A DNA stretch of 64,000 nt from Candidatus Zemynaea palustris (GTDB lineage Bacteria; Vulcanimicrobiota; Vulcanimicrobiia; Vulcanimicrobiales; Vulcanimicrobiaceae). The stretch is from positions 19,486 to 83,485 of the forward strand of contig PLCB01000024.1 of the NCBI GenBank assembly GCA_003134695.1. The letters run 5' to 3'. Position 1 is the first letter of the stretch; each line of letters begins with the position of its first letter. Position numbers and translations under genes: made by a program. This document shows positions 42,746 to 50,107 of the stretch, piece by piece. A model generated the notes under the pieces. The model had not been told where the DNA came from, did not search any database, and worked only from the letters and a program-made list of their open reading frames with translations.

Positions 42746-44116
42746 TCAGGCGATGCGAAGCGATGTCGAGGCCCGGCGATCTTTGCGCCGGCGTGGGCTG
42801 CGACGCTGTTCCTCACCCACGAAGGTGGCTTCCGGCCGCACCGGTTCGCGCGCGGTTTCCCCGAGGTAGTCGGGGATGACGAAGAGCGGTTCGAGCGGGA
42901 CGATCGCGTCGATCGAGTCGTCGCCGACCGTGAGGTGGCACATCGCTTGGTCGCGGCTCATGCCGAAGAGGAGGCTCGGACTGATCGCGCCGGGCGAGTG
43001 GTGCGTCGCGCGATCCAGCAGCGCGAGCGTCTCCTGGTCGTCGGTCTTGAAGAAGATCTTTTGGGTGAAGTTTTGCAGCGCGGCATCGACGTGATGTCGC
43101 GGTAGCGCCGAATAGAGCGACGACACGCCGTGCGCCGTCGCCAGCACCATGCAGCCGGCGGAGCGGACGATGCCGAACGACTGGATGTCGGATTCCGAGA
43201 TGCAGAGCTGATATTCGTCGAGGGCAAACACGACCGGGCGCGTTTGGTCGAGTGCGGGGTTCGCGCGGCGCCGCTCCATCGTCGTGAAGAAGCGACGTTT
43301 GGCCATCGTGTAGAGTACTTGAGCTGCGCTGTCGTATTCGGCGCGGGGAATGTGTAAGACGATGACCTTGCCGTCGAAGACGGACTCGATCCCGACGAGA
43401 TCGCGCTGATGTGTGAAGGTTTTCGCGATCCTCGCGTCGCGCAGCGGCTCGAGCAGCTGCGAGATCGCGAACTGCACGGTCCGGCGCGTCTCCGCCGTGA
43501 ATTGGAACCAACGCGCGTCCTCGTAGTTGATCGCTTCGTCGATGGTCCAGGCTTCTTCGCTGTTTGGGAGCATCGCGCGGCGATGCTCCGCGGCGTGGAC
43601 TCTGACCGTCGCGGCGTACTGCTCGTCGAAGCAGTACGAACTGAGATGCTCGAACGTATAGTATTGCCGCCCGGTCCCGAGCAGCATGCGGAGGACGTTC
43701 TTGAGCCGCGTGACGGCACCGTCGAGTGCCTGCAAGTCGGCGTCGGCGACCCGGCCAAGCGCATCGCGGAAGTACATCGCGTCGACGTCGGGGCTGCCGC
43801 TCAGGAGGTCGAGCCCGACCTCGGAGCCGGGCTGAATCACCAGGGCCTCGCGGCCGGCCTGGCGCGCGATCTCGACGACTTCGGCAACGACTTCGGGCTT
43901 CGGCGCGAGGATGAACGCACCGGCATCGAGCCCGCCTAGCATCTGAGCGAGGATCGGATTGAACGCCCGAGTCGTCTTGCCGGCTCCGGACGACCCGAGA
44001 ATGAGCGTGTGACGGGTGAGGTCGTTGAAGGAGAGGGCGGCGCGAGCCGTACCGTCACCGAGCACGACCGAACGGTCGCGTGGGGCCAAACGGGCAGTCG
44101 AAGTGCGTCCTTGCAT
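42746..44116 (-). CDS. Orphan VirD4/TraD/TraG-type ATPase
   Basis: 456 residues. The P-loop is LILGSSGAGKTTRAF (residues ~39-52) with RAFNPILAQML and DAGAFILAPKPEVVAEVVEI after it; Walker B is RPVVFALDEYQLC (~293-305). The order and spacing resemble type IV coupling proteins and related DNA-translocase-like ATPases. I see no N-terminal transmembrane anchor, unlike most coupling proteins. A relaxase or other type IV secretion genes are absent from the window. It lies immediately downstream of the peptide-modification locus, same strand, with a 109-bp gap, so it may belong to it or be a relic of mobile DNA. Confidence 0.8.
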   Translation of the reverse strand: MQGRTSTARLAPRDRSVVLGDGTARAALSFNDLTRHTLILGSSGAGKTTRAFNPILAQMLGGLDAGAFILAPKPEVVAEVVEIARQAGREALVIQPGSEVGLDLLSGSPDVDAMYFRDALGRVADADLQALDGAVTRLKNVLRMLLGTGRQYYTFEHLSSYCFDEQYAATVRVHAAEHRRAMLPNSEEAWTIDEAINYEDARWFQFTAETRRTVQFAISQLLEPLRDARIAKTFTHQRDLVGIESVFDGKVIVLHIPRAEYDSAAQVLYTMAKRRFFTTMERRRANPALDQTRPVVFALDEYQLCISESDIQSFGIVRSAGCMVLATAHGVSSLYSALPRHHVDAALQNFTQKIFFKTDDQETLALLDRATHHSPGAISPSLLFGMSRDQAMCHLTVGDDSIDAIVPLEPLFVIPDYLGETAREPVRPEATFVGEEQRRSPRRRKDRRASTSLRIA

Positions 44117-44225: not shown

Positions 44226-44483
44226 TTAGGCTCGGAGCAAGCCGAGGTTCGTGAAGTCCGCGATGATCGAATCGACGTCGGGGCGGGCGCGTTCGGTGTC
44301 CACCAGGAATGCGTTCGCGACGCCGACCGCGATCTCAGGGACCGTGCGCGTCCCGTCGCAGAGTTCCAACACCTTGCCGGCCGTCGAATTGAGCACGTGC
44401 ACCTTCCCGTTGCCGGGATCGTGGACGAGCGTCTCGTCGCCGGCGACCGAAATCTCGAGGCCGGGAACCTGTCGCGGTTTCAT
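44226..44483 (-). CDS. PqqD-like RiPP recognition protein
   Basis: 85 residues from the ATG at 44483. KPRQVPGLEISVAGDETLVHDPGNGKVHVLNSTAGKVLELCDGTRTVPEIA is the PqqD fold: a beta hairpin, then the N-x-T-x-x-x-v-l-l-DG motif and a winged helix. PqqD-like domains bind the leader of precursor peptides and present them to enzymes. It ends with TNLGLLRA. It is 11 bp after the ABC permease and last in the exporter operon, as expected for a RiPP chaperone. Confidence 0.85.
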   Translation of the reverse strand: MKPRQVPGLEISVAGDETLVHDPGNGKVHVLNSTAGKVLELCDGTRTVPEIAVGVANAFLVDTERARPDVDSIIADFTNLGLLRA

Positions 44484-44493
44484 TGCGATGTGA

Positions 44494-45303
44494 TCAGTAA
44501 TCTCCAAGCGTACCGTCCACCTTTGCGCGGCGCACTGCGCGGCTGAAAGCGTAGAGCGAGATCGGCCCCAGGACGACCGTGAGGACGGCCAACCAGAGCG
44601 CGTCCGGTCCGAGTTCGAAGATGCCGGCACCGGCCACCGCGCCACGGATACCGTTGAGCGAGTGCGTGATCGGCAGCGTCCATGAGATCAGTTGCAGCCA
44701 GTGCGGCAGCCGGTCGACCGGAAAGAGCACGCCGCCGAGCAGCGCGCCGAGACCGCCGAAGAGCATCGCCGTCGGCGCCTCTTGTTTGAAGGTCATGATG
44801 CTCGCCGCGCTCAGAACGCCGATCGGCGACATCGCGAGCATCGTGAGCGCGAGGAAGATCGCGGCGGTGATGAGGTTGACGTGGTTGAGCTGCAACCCGA
44901 GGCCGAGGGCGATGGCGAGGAAGAACGCGATCTGCACGAGCGTCAATGCGAACGCCCAGAGTCCCGACGACAAGATCAAGAGCGGCAGGCTCGTCGGCGT
45001 CGCCATCAGGACCTCTAGCGTCCCGACCATCTGCGCGCCGCGCATGGCTTGCTGGAAACTGTGAATCGAGACGTTCTGGAAGCGCACGAACGCCAGGTTG
45101 ATCGCAACGTAATCAAAGTAGGTGGCCGGATGTCCGACGATGCCGTACGCCTTCGACGGTCCGACCAGCTTCGCGATGAAGAAGAAGGTCACGACCTGGC
45201 CCACGATGCTGAGCCAGCTGCCCCAGAAGTTGACCGGATACGCAAGCGCGATGCGCGCGTCGCGCATGAAGATCGCGCGCGACTTGTCGAGCGCGCTATT
45301 CAT
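44494..45303 (-). CDS. ABC-2 type transporter permease
   Basis: 269 residues with about six transmembrane segments. It begins with a cytosolic helix (NSALDKSRAIFMRDARIALAYPVNFWGSW) and includes a central hydrophobic set (ILSSGLWAFALTLVQIAFFLAIALGLGLQ). The region GLGALLGGVLFPVDRLPHWLQLISWTLPITHSLNGIRGAV is typical of ABC-2 exporters. It overlaps the ATPase gene by 8 bp. Likely exports the modified peptide. Confidence 0.9.
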   Translation of the reverse strand: MNSALDKSRAIFMRDARIALAYPVNFWGSWLSIVGQVVTFFFIAKLVGPSKAYGIVGHPATYFDYVAINLAFVRFQNVSIHSFQQAMRGAQMVGTLEVLMATPTSLPLLILSSGLWAFALTLVQIAFFLAIALGLGLQLNHVNLITAAIFLALTMLAMSPIGVLSAASIMTFKQEAPTAMLFGGLGALLGGVLFPVDRLPHWLQLISWTLPITHSLNGIRGAVAGAGIFELGPDALWLAVLTVVLGPISLYAFSRAVRRAKVDGTLGDY

Positions 45304-46309
45304 TGCGCGCTCCCGCCGTCGCAGCGCGGAAGACCTCGAACGGCTCCTCGTCGAGTTGCCGGAAAGCGCGAATGGTGACGCCGTTACCCCCCAGCACGCC
45401 GAGCAGCGACGTCAGATTCCGTTCGCGCAGCTCGAGGTCGACGATCAAACCCGGTTCGCCGTCCATCATCTCGACCGAACCGACGCCGTCGACGCAGCGA
45501 AGCCGCTCGAGCAGGCCGTCGTCGAAACGGTCGAGCGAGATCGCGTAACGGCGCCGATCGGCGAAGCGGCTGCCGAGTTCGAGCGGCGTTCCTTGCGCGA
45601 CGATGCGTCCGTCGGAGAGGATGACGACCGTGTCACATATCGACCAAGCCTCGGCTAAGACGTTGGTGCTAGCGACGACCGTCTTCCCCAGTTCGCGCGC
45701 CAAACGGTCGCGCATCAGCGTGCGAATCGCTTCGGTGTGGACCGGATCGACCGCGCGCGTCGGTTCGTCGAAGAAGAGCACTTCGGGGTCGGCCAGCATC
45801 GCCCGGGCCACGGCGAGCCGTTGGCGCATCCCGGTCGAATATGTCCGCACCTCCACGTCGAGGACGCGCGCGATGTCGACGGTCTTCGCAACCTCGATGA
45901 CGCGCGCCGCGACGATTCTGCGCGGCAGCCCGGCGAGGATCGCAAAGAATTCCAGATTGGCCCGCGCCGTCAGACGGTAGTAAAACGCGCGTTCTTCGCT
46001 CGTGCAGAGCCCGATGCGGCGTTTGACCTCCATCGGCTGGGCCACCGCGTCGACGCCGTCGACGAAGATCTCGCCGCGATCCGGCAGCAAGAGCGTCGAC
46101 ATCAGCTTCAGCAAGGTCGTCTTGCCGGCGCCGTTGGGCCCGAGCAAGCCGAAGACGCTGCCGCGCGGGATCGTCAGGTCGATATCGTCGAGGACGACCC
46201 GGCGCTCGCGCCGGCGACCGAAGCGCCGCAGCCATTCACTCATTCGATACGTGCGCGGAAACGACTTGGTGACGCCGCGCAGTTCGACGATCGGGGAGAC
46301 GGCGTTCAC
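45296..46309 (-). CDS. ABC transporter ATP-binding protein
   Basis: 337 residues from the GTG at 46309, which overlaps the stop of the upstream gene (GTGA). Walker A is GLLGPNGAGKTTLLKLMS, the signature is TYSTGMRQRLAVARAMLADP and Walker B is VLFFDEPTRAVDP. A C-terminal ~80-residue extension (RRYAISLDRFDDGLLERLRCVDGVGSVEMMDGEPGL) is of the kind seen in drug or peptide exporter ATPases. No C39 peptidase domain is present, so leader removal is done by something else. Confidence 0.93.
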   Translation of the reverse strand: MNAVSPIVELRGVTKSFPRTYRMSEWLRRFGRRRERRVVLDDIDLTIPRGSVFGLLGPNGAGKTTLLKLMSTLLLPDRGEIFVDGVDAVAQPMEVKRRIGLCTSEERAFYYRLTARANLEFFAILAGLPRRIVAARVIEVAKTVDIARVLDVEVRTYSTGMRQRLAVARAMLADPEVLFFDEPTRAVDPVHTEAIRTLMRDRLARELGKTVVASTNVLAEAWSICDTVVILSDGRIVAQGTPLELGSRFADRRRYAISLDRFDDGLLERLRCVDGVGSVEMMDGEPGLIVDLELRERNLTSLLGVLGGNGVTIRAFRQLDEEPFEVFRAATAGARNE

Positions 46310-47847
46310 GGTCCTTGCATTCGCGCCGCGTAGAAGAGCGCGAGCGGCGTCAGGGCGAGCCTGCCGGCGATCTGGCGGAGCGACGGGCGGTCGAGCGTCA
46401 AGATGCGCTTGGCCAATTCGTTCCAACCCTCGGCTGCGAACCAGGCTTCGACGCCGACGGTCCGCGCGCCGAGGAGTCGCGGCATGTCGTCGCGGCGCCC
46501 GGTCCAGCGGAGATACGCATCGCTCCGAGCGTCGACGTTCCATTCGAGGCCCGCCATCTGCGCGGCCAGCGCGAGGCTTGCGTTCAAGCGGACGGGATCG
46601 ATCGGCTCGGTACCGGCCAAAATGCGGAGACGTTCGAGCTCGTGCGGATCCAACGCGCGCAGGGCGCGCGCGCAAAGAAACGTATCGCGTAGGCGTTCGT
46701 GACCGATGGCGTGGATCGCGCCGTGCAACGCGGTCGCAAAGGCGTCGAAGCAGCGCGCGCGGCTTTCGTTGTTTTCGACGAAGACAAGGTGCGGCTCGAG
46801 TGCCGCCCAGTCGGTCGGCAAGCCGACGAGCCCGGGCGGTGCGAGCGCGACGTGCAGTTCGACGAACGCGCCGTTACGCTTCGGCGGGTGAAGCGCCGCG
46901 AGGTGGTGATGGCTCTTGCGATAGCGAGCCTGGGCCAACTCGCTCGCGCGGAACGTGTACCCGTGGCGCTGGAGTGCGACCGCCGCCGCGTCGGCTTTAT
47001 CGGCTGGAACCAAGATGTCGATGTCGCAACTCGCGTGGTGGGCGGAGCCGTCTTCGCCGCGAAAGACGCGGGCCGCGCCTTTGAGGAGCGCGAACGGGAC
47101 GTGCGCTTCGCTCAAGAACCGAACGATCGCGCCGATCTGCGAGCGCCGCGCGATCGACGTAACGGCGTCGATGCGCGTCGCGGGTACGAGCATTCTGCGT
47201 AAGCGGTCGGCGACCGGGTCGCCGTCGAGCGCGCGGAGCGCGTCGGAGACGATGCCGGCGCAACGATGGCGCGTCGCGGTCTGCACGAAACGCACCGGTT
47301 CGACCGACGCGATCGCGGTGGCGAGCGCTGACGTGTCGTTGCGGACGATCGCCGAGAGCGCCGCGACGAGCGCCGGCTGGGTGCGCGGACGTCGCGACGG
47401 AAAACCGAATTGGAAGGCGGCCGAGAAGAGGTAGCCGAGACGGTGCAGTGCGGCGCGCAACCGGTGGCAGTGCGCGTAATATTGGCCGCGCAGCGCAAAC
47501 AGCACGCCGTCGATGCGTGGCGCCTCAGGTTGGCCGCTCGCGTAAACCGCCTGGATGGTGGCAAGGACGTCGCGGTGCGGGACGTCCTCGATGATGTGCG
47601 GCTGCGCGTCGCCGGCCGTCCGAATGCCGGCGGCTGTGACGGCGATCACACGGTGCGCGATGAGTTTGTCGATCCCGCGGAAGATGACGACATCCCCGAC
47701 TCGAGCCGCACCGGTATAGGGACCGACTCGGAGGACCATCCCCTCGCGAAAGAGCGGCGTCATGCTCGCGCCGCGCATCGCAAGGCGCGCGCCGCTGGCG
47801 GCGCTCAAACGCAAAATCTGATCGGTTCGTTCAGAACGCTCGGTCAT
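46306..47847 (-). CDS. Fusion: S26 signal-peptidase-like domain and nucleotidyltransferase
   Basis: 513 residues from the ATG at 47847 (AGGGAC upstream; a GTG at 47853 is possible). Residues ~20-105 look like an S26 signal peptidase core: MRGASMTPLF with Ser28, GDVVIFRG (51-58), AHRVIAV with His65, and TAGDAQ (77-82). The Ser/His pairing resembles the SipW/Sec11 type. There is no N-terminal membrane anchor, so it may act in the cytoplasm. Residues ~240-500 are an NTP_transf_5-like nucleotidyltransferase (FALLKGAARVF, SCDIDILVP with Asp275 and Asp277, YTFRASELAQARY). Such nucleotidyltransferases occur in lasso peptide clusters with kinases. The fusion is unusual. It lies between the second kinase gene and the exporter. 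Confidence 0.85.
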   Translation of the reverse strand: MTERSERTDQILRLSAASGARLAMRGASMTPLFREGMVLRVGPYTGAARVGDVVIFRGIDKLIAHRVIAVTAAGIRTAGDAQPHIIEDVPHRDVLATIQAVYASGQPEAPRIDGVLFALRGQYYAHCHRLRAALHRLGYLFSAAFQFGFPSRRPRTQPALVAALSAIVRNDTSALATAIASVEPVRFVQTATRHRCAGIVSDALRALDGDPVADRLRRMLVPATRIDAVTSIARRSQIGAIVRFLSEAHVPFALLKGAARVFRGEDGSAHHASCDIDILVPADKADAAAVALQRHGYTFRASELAQARYRKSHHHLAALHPPKRNGAFVELHVALAPPGLVGLPTDWAALEPHLVFVENNESRARCFDAFATALHGAIHAIGHERLRDTFLCARALRALDPHELERLRILAGTEPIDPVRLNASLALAAQMAGLEWNVDARSDAYLRWTGRRDDMPRLLGARTVGVEAWFAAEGWNELAKRILTLDRPSLRQIAGRLALTPLALFYAARMQGP

Positions 47848-47885
47848 GCGCACGTCCCTGGTATCGGCAAAGGGTCTCCGCCTCT

Positions 47886-47917
47886 ACTCTCGCACGGCGG
47901 CCGGGAACGCGGCAGAA
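47886..47917 (-). promoter_or_regulatory. Promoter-like box upstream of the S26-nucleotidyltransferase gene
   Basis: Read on the minus strand: TTCTGC (47917-47912), then after 8 bases CGGCCGCCGTGCGAGAGT (47903-47886). It matches the box before the peptide gene at 50076-50107 in 16 of 18 bases of the second part, with the same spacing to TTCT. The ATG lies 38 bases further on. Similarity of two sites at the same spacing suggests a shared promoter; which sigma factor reads it is unknown. Confidence 0.5.
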
Positions 47918-47934
47918 GCCCCGGTCGCATCGTT

Positions 47935-47952
47935 CTGGGCCATTTGGCCCAG
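47935..47952 (-). other. Perfect inverted repeat between kinase and fusion genes
   Basis: On the minus strand CTGGGCCAAATGGCCCAG, a 7-bp stem with a 4-nt loop, lies 3 bases after the first kinase stop codon. No T-run follows. It may lower read-through into the exporter operon. Confidence 0.45.
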
Positions 47953-47955
47953 CGC

Positions 47956-48834
47956 TCATTCGTGGGAGGTTTGAGCGATGAGCCGGGCCGTCTCGTCGGG
48001 CGTCCCGAGGGTCAGCCTGTACGGCCGGGCTCGCCGCAGCAGCCGCGTCGCCTCGACGACTCGCGCCGAGCCGCGCGCGCGGCTGCGGAGCGGCGCTCCG
48101 AGTAACGCTGTGACGGCGGCTTCAAGCGGCATCGGCTCGACGCTAGCTGTCGGCCCGCGGCCGGCGATGAAGAAGATCGCGCGCAACGGTCGCGGCTCGG
48201 GGAGGGCGACATCGCCGAAGAGGTCGGCGTAATCGATGAACGTCCAGTCGCCGCCCGCCCGGTCGATGCCGAGCAATTTGAGGCTTGCGGCGCGCACGTT
48301 GAGCGCACGCGGAAACGGAAGCACCACGTCGCCGTCGAGGATGCAGCGCTCGTCGGAGTAGAGCGGCATCCCGCGACGCGCGCACGCGATGGCAGTCGTC
48401 GTCTTCCCGCCCATCGAGGCGGCGGTGATCGCGGCCGCGACGCCGTTGACGCGGATCGCGGCGGCGTGAAACGAAAGATGGGCGCTGCGCTCCATGAAAT
48501 ACTCGGTGCGCACGACGACGTCGGCCAGAAACTGCAGCGCCGATGGAGCGAGCGGGTCATCCCATCGAAATGCCGGACCGTCGTCAACCCAAAAGTACGT
48601 GGCGCCGACCTCGACGACGGCATGGCCGCGGAGAGCGGCGGATCCCTTGGGCGCGAGCCGCGCGTAGCGCCGGCGATGCAGCGCGGCGGCTTCGGCGTCG
48701 CTGAAGCCGATCTCGATCGTCGTCCCGAACCACGTGGTAGCGGCCGTGTGCGTCGCGCGCTCGCCGAGTTCGCGACGGCGCCGCCCGTCGAGTTCGATCG
48801 TCGTCAGCCGATCGGCGCTAATCGGACCTTTCAC
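47956..48834 (-). CDS. HPr-kinase-like protein 1 (peptide kinase candidate)
   Basis: 292 residues from a GTG that overlaps the stop of kinase 2. The core is HLSFHAAAIRVNGVAAAITAASMGGKTTTAIACARRGMPLYSDERCIL: the P-loop is degenerate (ASMGGKTT, residues ~139-146, lacking the first Gly) but keeps Lys144 and Thr145. SDE (160-162) matches the catalytic acidic region of HprK. There is no HPr gene nearby. In paeninodin-type clusters such kinases phosphorylate a C-terminal Ser of the precursor; that role is inferred here. Confidence 0.82.
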   Translation of the reverse strand: MKGPISADRLTTIELDGRRRRELGERATHTAATTWFGTTIEIGFSDAEAAALHRRRYARLAPKGSAALRGHAVVEVGATYFWVDDGPAFRWDDPLAPSALQFLADVVVRTEYFMERSAHLSFHAAAIRVNGVAAAITAASMGGKTTTAIACARRGMPLYSDERCILDGDVVLPFPRALNVRAASLKLLGIDRAGGDWTFIDYADLFGDVALPEPRPLRAIFFIAGRGPTASVEPMPLEAAVTALLGAPLRSRARGSARVVEATRLLRRARPYRLTLGTPDETARLIAQTSHE

Positions 48835-49703
48835 CGGAACGCCTCAGCGAGCACGGCGGCGGCGTCCTTGGGGTCGCCGAGCGTGACACGATAGGCAGGG
48901 ACTCCCGAGAAGAGCGCCGCGAGATTGCTCAAGCGCCCAAAACCCTCGGCGTCTGAATTGAGCCGGCGCGCCAGCTCGAGTGAAGCGACCGCCGTCGCAA
49001 TCGGTTCGCAGCGCGGTGCCGCGCCGTCGTGGCAGCGCTCGAGCAACACGATCCCTGCGAGCGGCGCCGATGACGCGTAGATATCGGGGCCATAGATATC
49101 GACGGGATCGATCGCGTGCCAGATGTTGAAGCCGGCGCTCGAGACTTTTGCGTCGTCGACGGCGCAGCGTTGGTGGATGCGCCGATTCTCGATCTGCGCG
49201 AGAGCCGGTTCGCGGATCATGAACGTGCGCGGATAACCCGAGACGACGCGATCGGTTTTCCGCACGAAGACGAACTCGTCGCTCAAGAGGCGCGCACCGC
49301 GATCGAGCAGCGCCAGCGCGAGCGTCGTTTTCCCGGCGCCTGATTCGGCGACGGCGACGATGGCGCCGGCCGGAAGCGCGAGCGCCGCACCGTGGAAACT
49401 CAGCCACGCGTCGTTGCGGCGAAAGCTCTCTCGGAACAGCCGGTTCGAGCCGTAGAAGCCGAAACGAAACGCGCCGCGCGCGGTGCTCTTCTCGAGGTCG
49501 ATCTTCGTTCCGTTGAATTCGACGCTCGGCTGCGCACCGCGGCCGTGAATCGCGGCGCGATCGAGTGGGACGCCCGGGACGGGCCGCGCGATACGCGTCC
49601 GCGCGTACGTCGAGCGCACGTAGTCGCGAATCTCCGGCGAATCGACCTCGAGGGCCAACTGCCGCTCGAGGGTCAAAAAGAAATCGGGCACCGTGCTCCT
49701 CAT
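48831..49703 (-). CDS. HPr-kinase-like protein 2 (peptide kinase candidate)
   Basis: 290 residues from the ATG at 49703; a GTG four codons later (49691) has AGGAG four bases upstream and is a good alternative. LSFHGAALALPAGAIVAVAESGAGKTTLALALLDRGARLLSDEFVFV has an intact P-loop (ESGAGKTT, residues ~120-127) and the SDE acidic motif at ~141-143. It overlaps kinase 1 by 4 bp. The similarity to kinase 1 is over the core only. First gene after the peptide gene and its terminator. Confidence 0.87.
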   Translation of the reverse strand: MRSTVPDFFLTLERQLALEVDSPEIRDYVRSTYARTRIARPVPGVPLDRAAIHGRGAQPSVEFNGTKIDLEKSTARGAFRFGFYGSNRLFRESFRRNDAWLSFHGAALALPAGAIVAVAESGAGKTTLALALLDRGARLLSDEFVFVRKTDRVVSGYPRTFMIREPALAQIENRRIHQRCAVDDAKVSSAGFNIWHAIDPVDIYGPDIYASSAPLAGIVLLERCHDGAAPRCEPIATAVASLELARRLNSDAEGFGRLSNLAALFSGVPAYRVTLGDPKDAAAVLAEAFR

Positions 49704-49869
49704 CGGCTTACCGTATGAGCGGCATGACGCCCGATCTGGGGTGGACTGAGATGGTCGTTGATAAGGAAATCCCGTGTGCTCTCGCAACTATGCCATGGGG
49801 CGGAGGTCGGGAAAGGTGTCGAGTGGGACCGCCTACCTTGGGACTTCGGACCTATAAGACCGCGGGGGG

Positions 49870-49896
49870 AAAAAAAAGACCCGGCGAGACGCCGGG
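49870..49896 (-). terminator. Intrinsic terminator of the peptide gene
   Basis: On the minus strand CCCGGCG (49896-49890), loop TCT, CGCCGGG (49886-49880), then TC and eight Ts (49877-49870). A perfect 7-bp G+C stem and a T-run: the clearest intrinsic terminator in the window. It follows the peptide stop by 24 bases and so limits most transcription to the peptide gene, with some read-through possible into the kinase genes. Confidence 0.9.
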
Positions 49897-49920
49897 CCCT
49901 CAAGGATAGGCTGCTCGAGG

Positions 49921-50013
49921 CTAGTTCTTGGAGCTCGAGCCGCCGCCGAACGCCTCTGCGAGGACTTCGGCAGTGTCGACGGTCGCAAGGACCGCAGGGC
50001 TGACGTACGTCAT
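49921..50013 (-). CDS. Short RiPP precursor peptide candidate (30 residues)
   Basis: The peptide starts MTYVSPAVLATVDTAEVL and ends AEAFGGGSSSKN. Y-x-x-P-x-(V/L) at residues 3-9 and the following DTAEVL resemble the leader of lasso-peptide precursors (YxxPxLxxxG...), which PqqD-like proteins recognise. The end (residues ~23-30) has Gly, Ser, Lys and Asn but no Asp or Glu to close a lasso ring, and no Cys. Three Ser residues could be modified. AAGGAGAA lies 9 bases before the ATG, a very strong ribosome-binding site, and a terminator follows. The neighbours are two kinases, a nucleotidyltransferase fusion, an exporter and a PqqD protein. The precursor role is inferred. Confidence 0.72.
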   Translation of the reverse strand: MTYVSPAVLATVDTAEVLAEAFGGGSSSKN

Positions 50014-50047
50014 ATGATTTTTTCTCCTTGGAAAAGTGGGCCGGTGT

Positions 50048-50061
50048 CCGCCGTTTGGCGG
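50048..50061 (-). other. Hairpin in the leader of the peptide gene
   Basis: CCGCC-AAAC-GGCGG on the minus strand, a 5-bp stem with a 4-nt loop, about 35 bases ahead of the ATG. It could stabilise the short mRNA. Confidence 0.35.
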
Positions 50062-50075
50062 CGTGCCCTCCTAGA

Positions 50076-50107
50076 ACTATCGCACGACGGCCGCGTGGCT
50101 CGAAGAA
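50076..50107 (-). promoter_or_regulatory. Promoter-like box upstream of the peptide gene
   Basis: On the minus strand TTCTTC (50107-50102), then CGGCCGTCGTGCGATAGT (50093-50076). The last six bases (GATAGT) with the preceding TGC look like an extended -10. The distance to the ATG is about 62 bases. It shares 16 of 18 bases and exact spacing with the box at 47886-47917. Confidence 0.5.

Follow-up and report, generated by a model that had tools for sequence, protein, structure and literature searches.

A probable RiPP gene cluster of the linear polyphosphorylated peptide kind in Candidatus Eremiobacterota

Results

Gene content of the locus

The gene cluster analyzed in this study is located on the minus strand of a 64,000-nucleotide stretch of DNA (hereafter, the window), which spans 19486-83485 of contig C32 in the assembly of an uncultivated soil bacterium of Candidatus Eremiobacterota (2.7 Mb in 61 contigs, 96.7% complete). 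Read from 50013 down to 44226, it encodes a 30-residue precursor peptide (49921..50013), two HprK-like kinases, A (290 aa, 48831..49703) and B (292 aa, 47956..48834), a 513-residue fusion of an S26 (archaeal-type signal peptidase) domain with an NTP_transf_5 nucleotidyltransferase (46306..47847), a DrrA-like ABC exporter ATPase assigned by profile search (45296..46309), an ABC-2 type permease (44494..45303; PF01061, 1e-14), and a PqqD-family protein representing a discrete RRE (44226..44507, or from an ATG at 44480). A preliminary description of this DNA had named these parts, and its account of their identity, place and strand proved accurate. Genes flanking the cluster encode a GT87-like protein (profile search) and a protein that we take, from its sequence only, to be PHP/DNA polymerase III alpha-like; exopolysaccharide genes are absent beside the window cluster in the flanks as far as read. 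A VirD4/TraG-like ATPase gene lies directly behind pqqD both in the window (42746-44116, minus strand) and in the nearest relative, G008 (L024:7096-8343, plus strand), a position conserved only in these two members of different genera.

A conserved family of precursors

The precursor ORF (50013-49921, MTYVSPAVLATVDTAEVLAEAFGGGSSSKN) comprises a leader, MTYVSPAVLATVDTAEVLAEA, and a predicted core, FGGGSSSKN. Its ATG is preceded by a ribosome-binding site, AAGGAG (50024..50029, minus strand), and it is followed, ahead of kinase A, by a rho-independent terminator (12-pair stem plus T run; 49875..49901, minus strand). Comparable hairpins with T runs are present at several homologous precursors, and a terminator after the precursor is a usual means of making more precursor than enzyme. 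With a leave-one-out profile (the tested locus being excluded from its construction), the window ORF ranks first of 1191 ORFs in the 64 kb with E=4.3e-9 (runner-up E=0.53); the f2 family loci L040 and L041 give weak precursor matches in the same test.

Related loci were collected with a profile of a five-row fusion alignment, which found 13 loci in genome contigs (a single fusion sequence had no match there), and by an order-wide search with the fusion, which found it in 18 of 103 genomes; up to 20 kb around the fusion-bearing loci were gene-called and then read for short ORFs. The 13 loci are assigned to Eremiobacterota wherever a phylum is given, except for Centralia_MAG_155, which is titled Proteobacteria but has a contig matching G127, a genome of the same class, and L055, which was rejected as an unrelated S26 match. 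Neither the fusion nor kinase B had a match in plasmids. Leaving aside loci cut off at a contig end, every locus of the linear polyphosphorylated peptide (LPP) type has a short (M)YxxPx[VI] ORF with a good Shine-Dalgarno sequence at the same place, usually just upstream of the kinases, as the preliminary assignment of the precursor would lead one to expect. Across 149 genomes of the phylum, strong precursor matches are confined to exactly those 16 (families f1 and f3) that carry an LPP-type cluster, with 0 of the 133 others showing one (probability 8e-22 if the two were independent, relatedness ignored). This restriction, together with the leave-one-out score, rules out a chance ORF. The precursor profile had no match in PDB, the precursors had none in NCBIfam, and the window precursor had none in Pfam.

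Leader, cleavage site and core

A total of 33 Eremiobacterota precursors were aligned by hand, with the cut placed by eye, and the following counts describe that alignment. It is gap-free from the Tyr of YxxP to the predicted cleavage site, with 19 residues from Tyr to P1 in 33 of 33, and follows the consensus Y-x-x-P-x-[IV]-[ILV]-A-[TS]-[FLYIV]-[DE]-[AT]-x-x-[VL]-L-[AG]-E-[AV], after which come x-G and a tail with Ser or Thr. Ala occupies P1 in 29 precursors and Val in four, and at P3 (-3) a small residue (Ala, Gly, Ser, Thr or Val) is present in 29 precursors out of 33, a pattern that corresponds to signal-peptidase specificity. On that ground, the window precursor is most likely cut after Ala21, at an AxA signal-peptidase site (AEA/FGGGSSSKN, with the slash marking the cut), leaving a predicted core of about nine residues. 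Cleavage seven residues earlier, after the [FLIVY]-[DE]-[AT] motif that resembles the FET of LPP, was considered less likely, because it would leave only 11 residues from Tyr to P1 (15 in LppA), conservation runs on beyond the motif, and no Ser would be placed near +3. This motif could nevertheless be an alternative cut site, which we count against our main reading.

The tails are hypervariable (e.g., GSGSTHHGHGHGH, GGGSHCTPMGCH, GTGSCTDPAGCD and GSGSCQFSH), ranging from 7 to 21 residues, and all 33 cores contain Ser or Thr. Most homologues carry a Ser/Thr within +3 to +5 (the window precursor at +5), and in some the first one falls at +6 to +10; such a variable position of the presumed modified Ser counts against an LPP-type reading. 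The window core contains neither Asp nor Glu, and 28 of the 33 homologues, including the window, have no acid at core positions 7-9. In G096, a longer ORF near the cluster (L039:7823-8626, minus strand) terminates in frame with a second precursor-like end (MYESPSVTATFDAEALLGEALASLATSEQLAS).

In four genomes, precursors are also encoded far from the cluster: G127 (three at the cluster and four distant), G063 (one and four), G008 (one and one) and G126 (three on C119 and one distant, the least sure count, its cluster being split over contigs). The genes flanking the orphan LPP-type precursors (L121, L122, L123, L124, L126, L127, L128, L129 and L130), where read, are housekeeping or varied (DnaB, acyl/acetyl-CoA synthetase, thiolase). 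Since these distant precursors sit beside unrelated genes, one enzyme set may serve a dispersed precursor repertoire. Published LPP clusters contain one to three precursors each (PMC13381572).

Predicted modification, processing and export proteins

Kinase A matches the HprK-related family TIGR04352 (6e-13; 48.5 bits, cut-off 200), Hpr_kinase_C PF07475 below its cut-off (5e-5) and HprK in PDB (0.004), and is present in only some related loci. Kinase B has a weak TIGR04352 match (2e-6), and its AF2 model (pLDDT 94.5) matches HprK/P and PEPCK structures in Foldseek; it is found in f1 and f3 loci with G143/K144 and D161/E162 invariant, and is the strongest candidate to be the core kinase. The aligned kinases all retain the Walker A lysine together with an Asp-Glu pair, so that the window cluster is predicted to encode, as LPP clusters do, an HprK-like kinase with an intact active site. 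Between the two kinases of the nearest relative lies a methyltransferase-like gene (L024:1624-2436; PF13649, just under the cut-off), possibly an extra tailoring enzyme.

In the fusion protein, the nucleotidyltransferase half is assigned by NTP_transf_5 (PF14907, 5e-21) and retains the S-x-D-I-D motif (Asp275, Asp277), providing the NTP transferase of an LPP cluster, here fused to the peptidase. The S26 half matches archaeal-type signal peptidase I (TIGR02228, 1.4e-7, below cut-off), and its profile matches human SEC11 (8e-5). Its conserved Ser28, His65 and Asp80 are the motif counterparts of S29, H68 and D93, the catalytic triad of LppS (PMC13381572), consistent with a peptidase of the archaeal/SipW type with a Ser-His-Asp triad. 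No member of the fusion family has a transmembrane helix or hydrophobic stretch before the catalytic Ser28, which makes a cytoplasmic location of the S26 domain probable and sets it apart from housekeeping signal peptidases. The AF2 model of the fusion (pLDDT 85.8) resembles the folds of ANT(2'')-Ia and MenT1 in Foldseek, with weak E values of about 0.01. In L039, L040 and L041 the S26 gene is separate and the nucleotidyltransferase is encoded a few kb away.

The RRE matches PF05402 (9e-13) and falls just short of TIGR04353 (34.7 bits, cut-off 35). Its Asn40 and Asp77, shared by all 13 relatives, have the same 37-residue spacing as Asn33 and Asp70 of LppB, which bind the kinked Pro of the leader and its Tyr (PMC13381572), and thus are candidate leader-binding residues of a discrete RRE. 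By profile, this protein matches the lasso RRE TfuB1 (1.5e-7) and PqqD (7e-7), with only E=1.2 for LppB (9x8z). These scores point away from a monophyletic clade of LPP RREs, and with so little similarity to LppB, common descent with LPP is not established by profile score. The predicted exporter, an ABC-2 ATPase with a separate permease, is not of the MsbA-like type of LPP.

Absence of lasso enzymes

The preliminary description had proposed a lasso-like leader with a non-lasso core, and this view is supported: neither a true PF00733 lasso cyclase nor PF13471 (the transglutaminase-like B2 leader protease) was found in the 96.7%-complete genome, so that a genome-wide search for a cyclase/protease pair came back empty, and the core lacks the acid (Asp/Glu at positions 7-9) that, with these two enzymes, marks a lasso system. 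The sole PF00733-matching ORF (MSGGVDSAVAAGLL...) is presumably, judging from its sequence, the tRNA thiouridylase MnmA. The same searches found a cyclase with a neighbouring B2 gene in other genomes of the phylum (G095, G025, G068 and G097), and therefore are able to detect what the window genome misses; these four genomes have no match to the precursor profile at E<=0.01. A strong PF00733 match occurs in just one of the genomes bearing the cluster, G066.

Genuine lasso clusters of the phylum (L133:8829-9322 and L136:5009-8068) encode a cyclase, B2 and RRE-sized genes, with lasso-type precursors MKQRNPNEPAYGAPSIVFVGAVGSVT... and MEQDGEKRAWYSPEIVDVGGVVETTT..., respectively. A second type of PqqD cluster also occurs in the phylum (L029:3795-10735, L031, L032:6727-13597, L038, L087, L096, L138 and L140), combining PqqD, an HprK-like kinase, GT2 glycosyltransferases, a Transglut_core3 (B2-like) protease, NTP_transf_5 and a flippase/epimerase (replaced by an ABC exporter in L138/L140), without a cyclase. 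A YxxP precursor was looked for in this B2-type cluster and not found. The second type adjoins an LPP-type cluster in G063 and lies within about 16 kb of one in G055.

Discussion

The genes at this locus very probably produce a tiny, exported, phosphate-decorated peptide that carries a lasso-style recognition tag and is made without any lasso-forming enzyme. The closest known counterpart is LPP, described in Bacillota and called restricted to that phylum by its authors (Popov et al., Nat Commun, 20 May 2026; PMC13381572), in which a SipW-like peptidase (LppS), an RRE (LppB), an HprK-like kinase (LppK), an NTP transferase (LppN) and an exporter (LppD) operate without a cyclase (PMC13381572). 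The Eremiobacterota clusters share with it the YxxPxV leader, the discrete RRE, the HprK-like kinase, the SipW/archaeal-type peptidase, the NTP transferase, an ABC exporter and the lack of a cyclase and, in L028, L034 and L037, the adjoining exopolysaccharide genes reported for Bacillota. They differ in belonging to another phylum, in fusing the peptidase to the nucleotidyltransferase, in having a second kinase in many loci, in an ABC-2 rather than MsbA-like exporter, in cores of 7-21 residues vs. 45 in LppA, in an RRE hardly similar to LppB, and in having up to seven precursors scattered over one genome. The leader diverges as well: relative to the LPP consensus YxxPxVLxHQxIxFETxxS (PMC13381572), only YxxPx[VI][IL] is kept, and the leader ends in LLxEA/xGSGS instead of HQxIxFET/xxS. 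On balance, we assign the cluster with good confidence to RiPP clusters of the LPP kind and, by analogy of parts, predict that it works like LPP. Thus, the earlier suggestion of a probably related but different peptide class stands as to relatedness, given the shared parts list, and holds as to novelty only for a variant of LPP (PMC13381572). The accompanying suggestion of Ser phosphorylation appears well founded by analogy with LPP, where the same parts have been shown to polyphosphorylate Ser: LppK places several phosphates on Ser3 (PMC13381572).

Other known systems show a more partial resemblance. Paeninodin-like and Bsf phosphorylated lasso peptides have in common with the window cluster the leader motif, RRE, HprK-like kinase (BsfK phosphorylates core Ser3 of a lasso precursor; PMC10368454) and NTP transferase, but combine them with the cyclase, B2 protease and core acceptor acid that it lacks. 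In the case of HPr-rel-A (TIGR04352/TIGR04353), the PqqD-like protein comes near its cut-off and the kinases are distant relatives, whereas neither cut-off is reached by window proteins; to our knowledge, the definition of this system includes no precursor or peptidase. PQQ biosynthesis (PqqA/PqqD) shares the RRE fold and YxxP-type recognition; however, the window cluster has no gene for radical SAM PqqE or for PqqC, and its precursor core does not contain the Glu/Tyr pair of PqqA. A search of the literature on RiPPs or lasso peptides in Eremiobacterota returned nothing on this system.

In the mechanism that we propose, the free RRE would capture the leader through Y3-x-x-P6-x-V8-L9 and present the peptide to the enzymes, one or both HprK-like kinases would phosphorylate, perhaps repeatedly, a Ser just past the leader (S26-S28 in GGGSSSKN), and the soluble S26 domain (Ser28-His65-Asp80) would then remove the leader, most likely after Ala21. 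In LPP, leader removal is RRE-dependent, LppS cutting after T-1 only with LppB (PMC13381572). The nucleotidyltransferase half of the fusion may attach a nucleotide or another phosphate-linked group to the phospho-Ser, although LppN had no detectable activity or visible effect in the published system (PMC13381572). The ABC-2 pump would export the product, which is expected to remain un-lassoed, because neither a cyclase nor an acceptor acid is present. The sequence itself shows the genes, the precursor family, the kept active-site residues, the co-occurrence and the missing lasso enzymes; phosphorylation and its site, the order of steps, the cut, the nucleotidyltransferase chemistry, export, the structure of the product and any biological role are our inferences.

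Several other explanations were weighed against this one. A lasso peptide matured by a cyclase and B2 protease encoded elsewhere in the genome, with the kinases and nucleotidyltransferase acting in tailoring as in paeninodin and pseudomycoidin, would account for the YxxPx[VI] leader, discrete RRE, kinase and NTP transferase, all of which occur in paeninodin-like clusters (PMC13381572; PMC10368454); yet this extremely improbable reading was rejected as largely refuted by the absence of both enzymes from a nearly complete genome and by cores without an acid at positions 7-9 in 28 of 33 homologues, with the single strong PF00733 match among cluster-bearing genomes and the different appearance of the real lasso clusters of the phylum, which sit in other genomes, also speaking against it. 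That the short protein yields no peptide product and instead regulates or anchors the kinases, in HPr-like signalling, is very unlikely: kinase A is a distant relative of a family named after HprK, whose homologues have been described mostly in carbon regulation, but the short protein is not HPr-like, and the constant leader with a hypervariable tail, several precursors per genome, a leader-type protease and an exporter are hallmarks of a RiPP. A metal-binding or disulfide-closed small peptide, with phosphate as ligand or transport tag, is suggested by cores of relatives that are His-rich (THHGHGHGH) or contain two Cys (GTGSCTDPAGCD, GGGSHCTPMGCH); it is a rather improbable product here, as the window core has neither Cys nor His and the surroundings of the cluster showed no metal-related genes.

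A weightier alternative, to which we give somewhat less than an even chance, is that the cluster represents an independent class that arose by convergence and did not branch off from LPP, with like chemistry recruited separately from a lasso-type RRE, an HprK kinase, a signal peptidase and a nucleotidyltransferase. The RRE scores, the ABC-2 exporter and the leader consensus beyond YxxPxV all fit convergence, which the LPP authors themselves propose between LPP and phospho-lasso groups (PMC13381572). Against it stand the poor power of short RRE profiles to resolve ancestry and the recurrence, without a cyclase, of the same uncommon set of SEC11/SipW-type peptidase, HprK kinase, NTP transferase and RRE. 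A bolder and decidedly doubtful form of this idea would see here a convergent second class of cyclase-less phosphopeptides, in which the fusion couples leader removal to phospho-Ser nucleotidylation and one cluster matures up to seven scattered precursors, many with disulfide-ready or His-rich cores.

Overall, if our preferred assignment to the LPP kind is correct, a peptide type reported as restricted to Bacillota gains a counterpart in a distant uncultivated phylum, and the set of RRE, HprK kinase, signal peptidase and nucleotidyltransferase either is of ancient origin, has spread horizontally, or was put together on two occasions. With its short core, soluble peptidase-nucleotidyltransferase fusion and natural library of 33 precursors, this system would be convenient for probing the role of the NTP transferase, as well as for asking whether one RRE serves many distant precursors.
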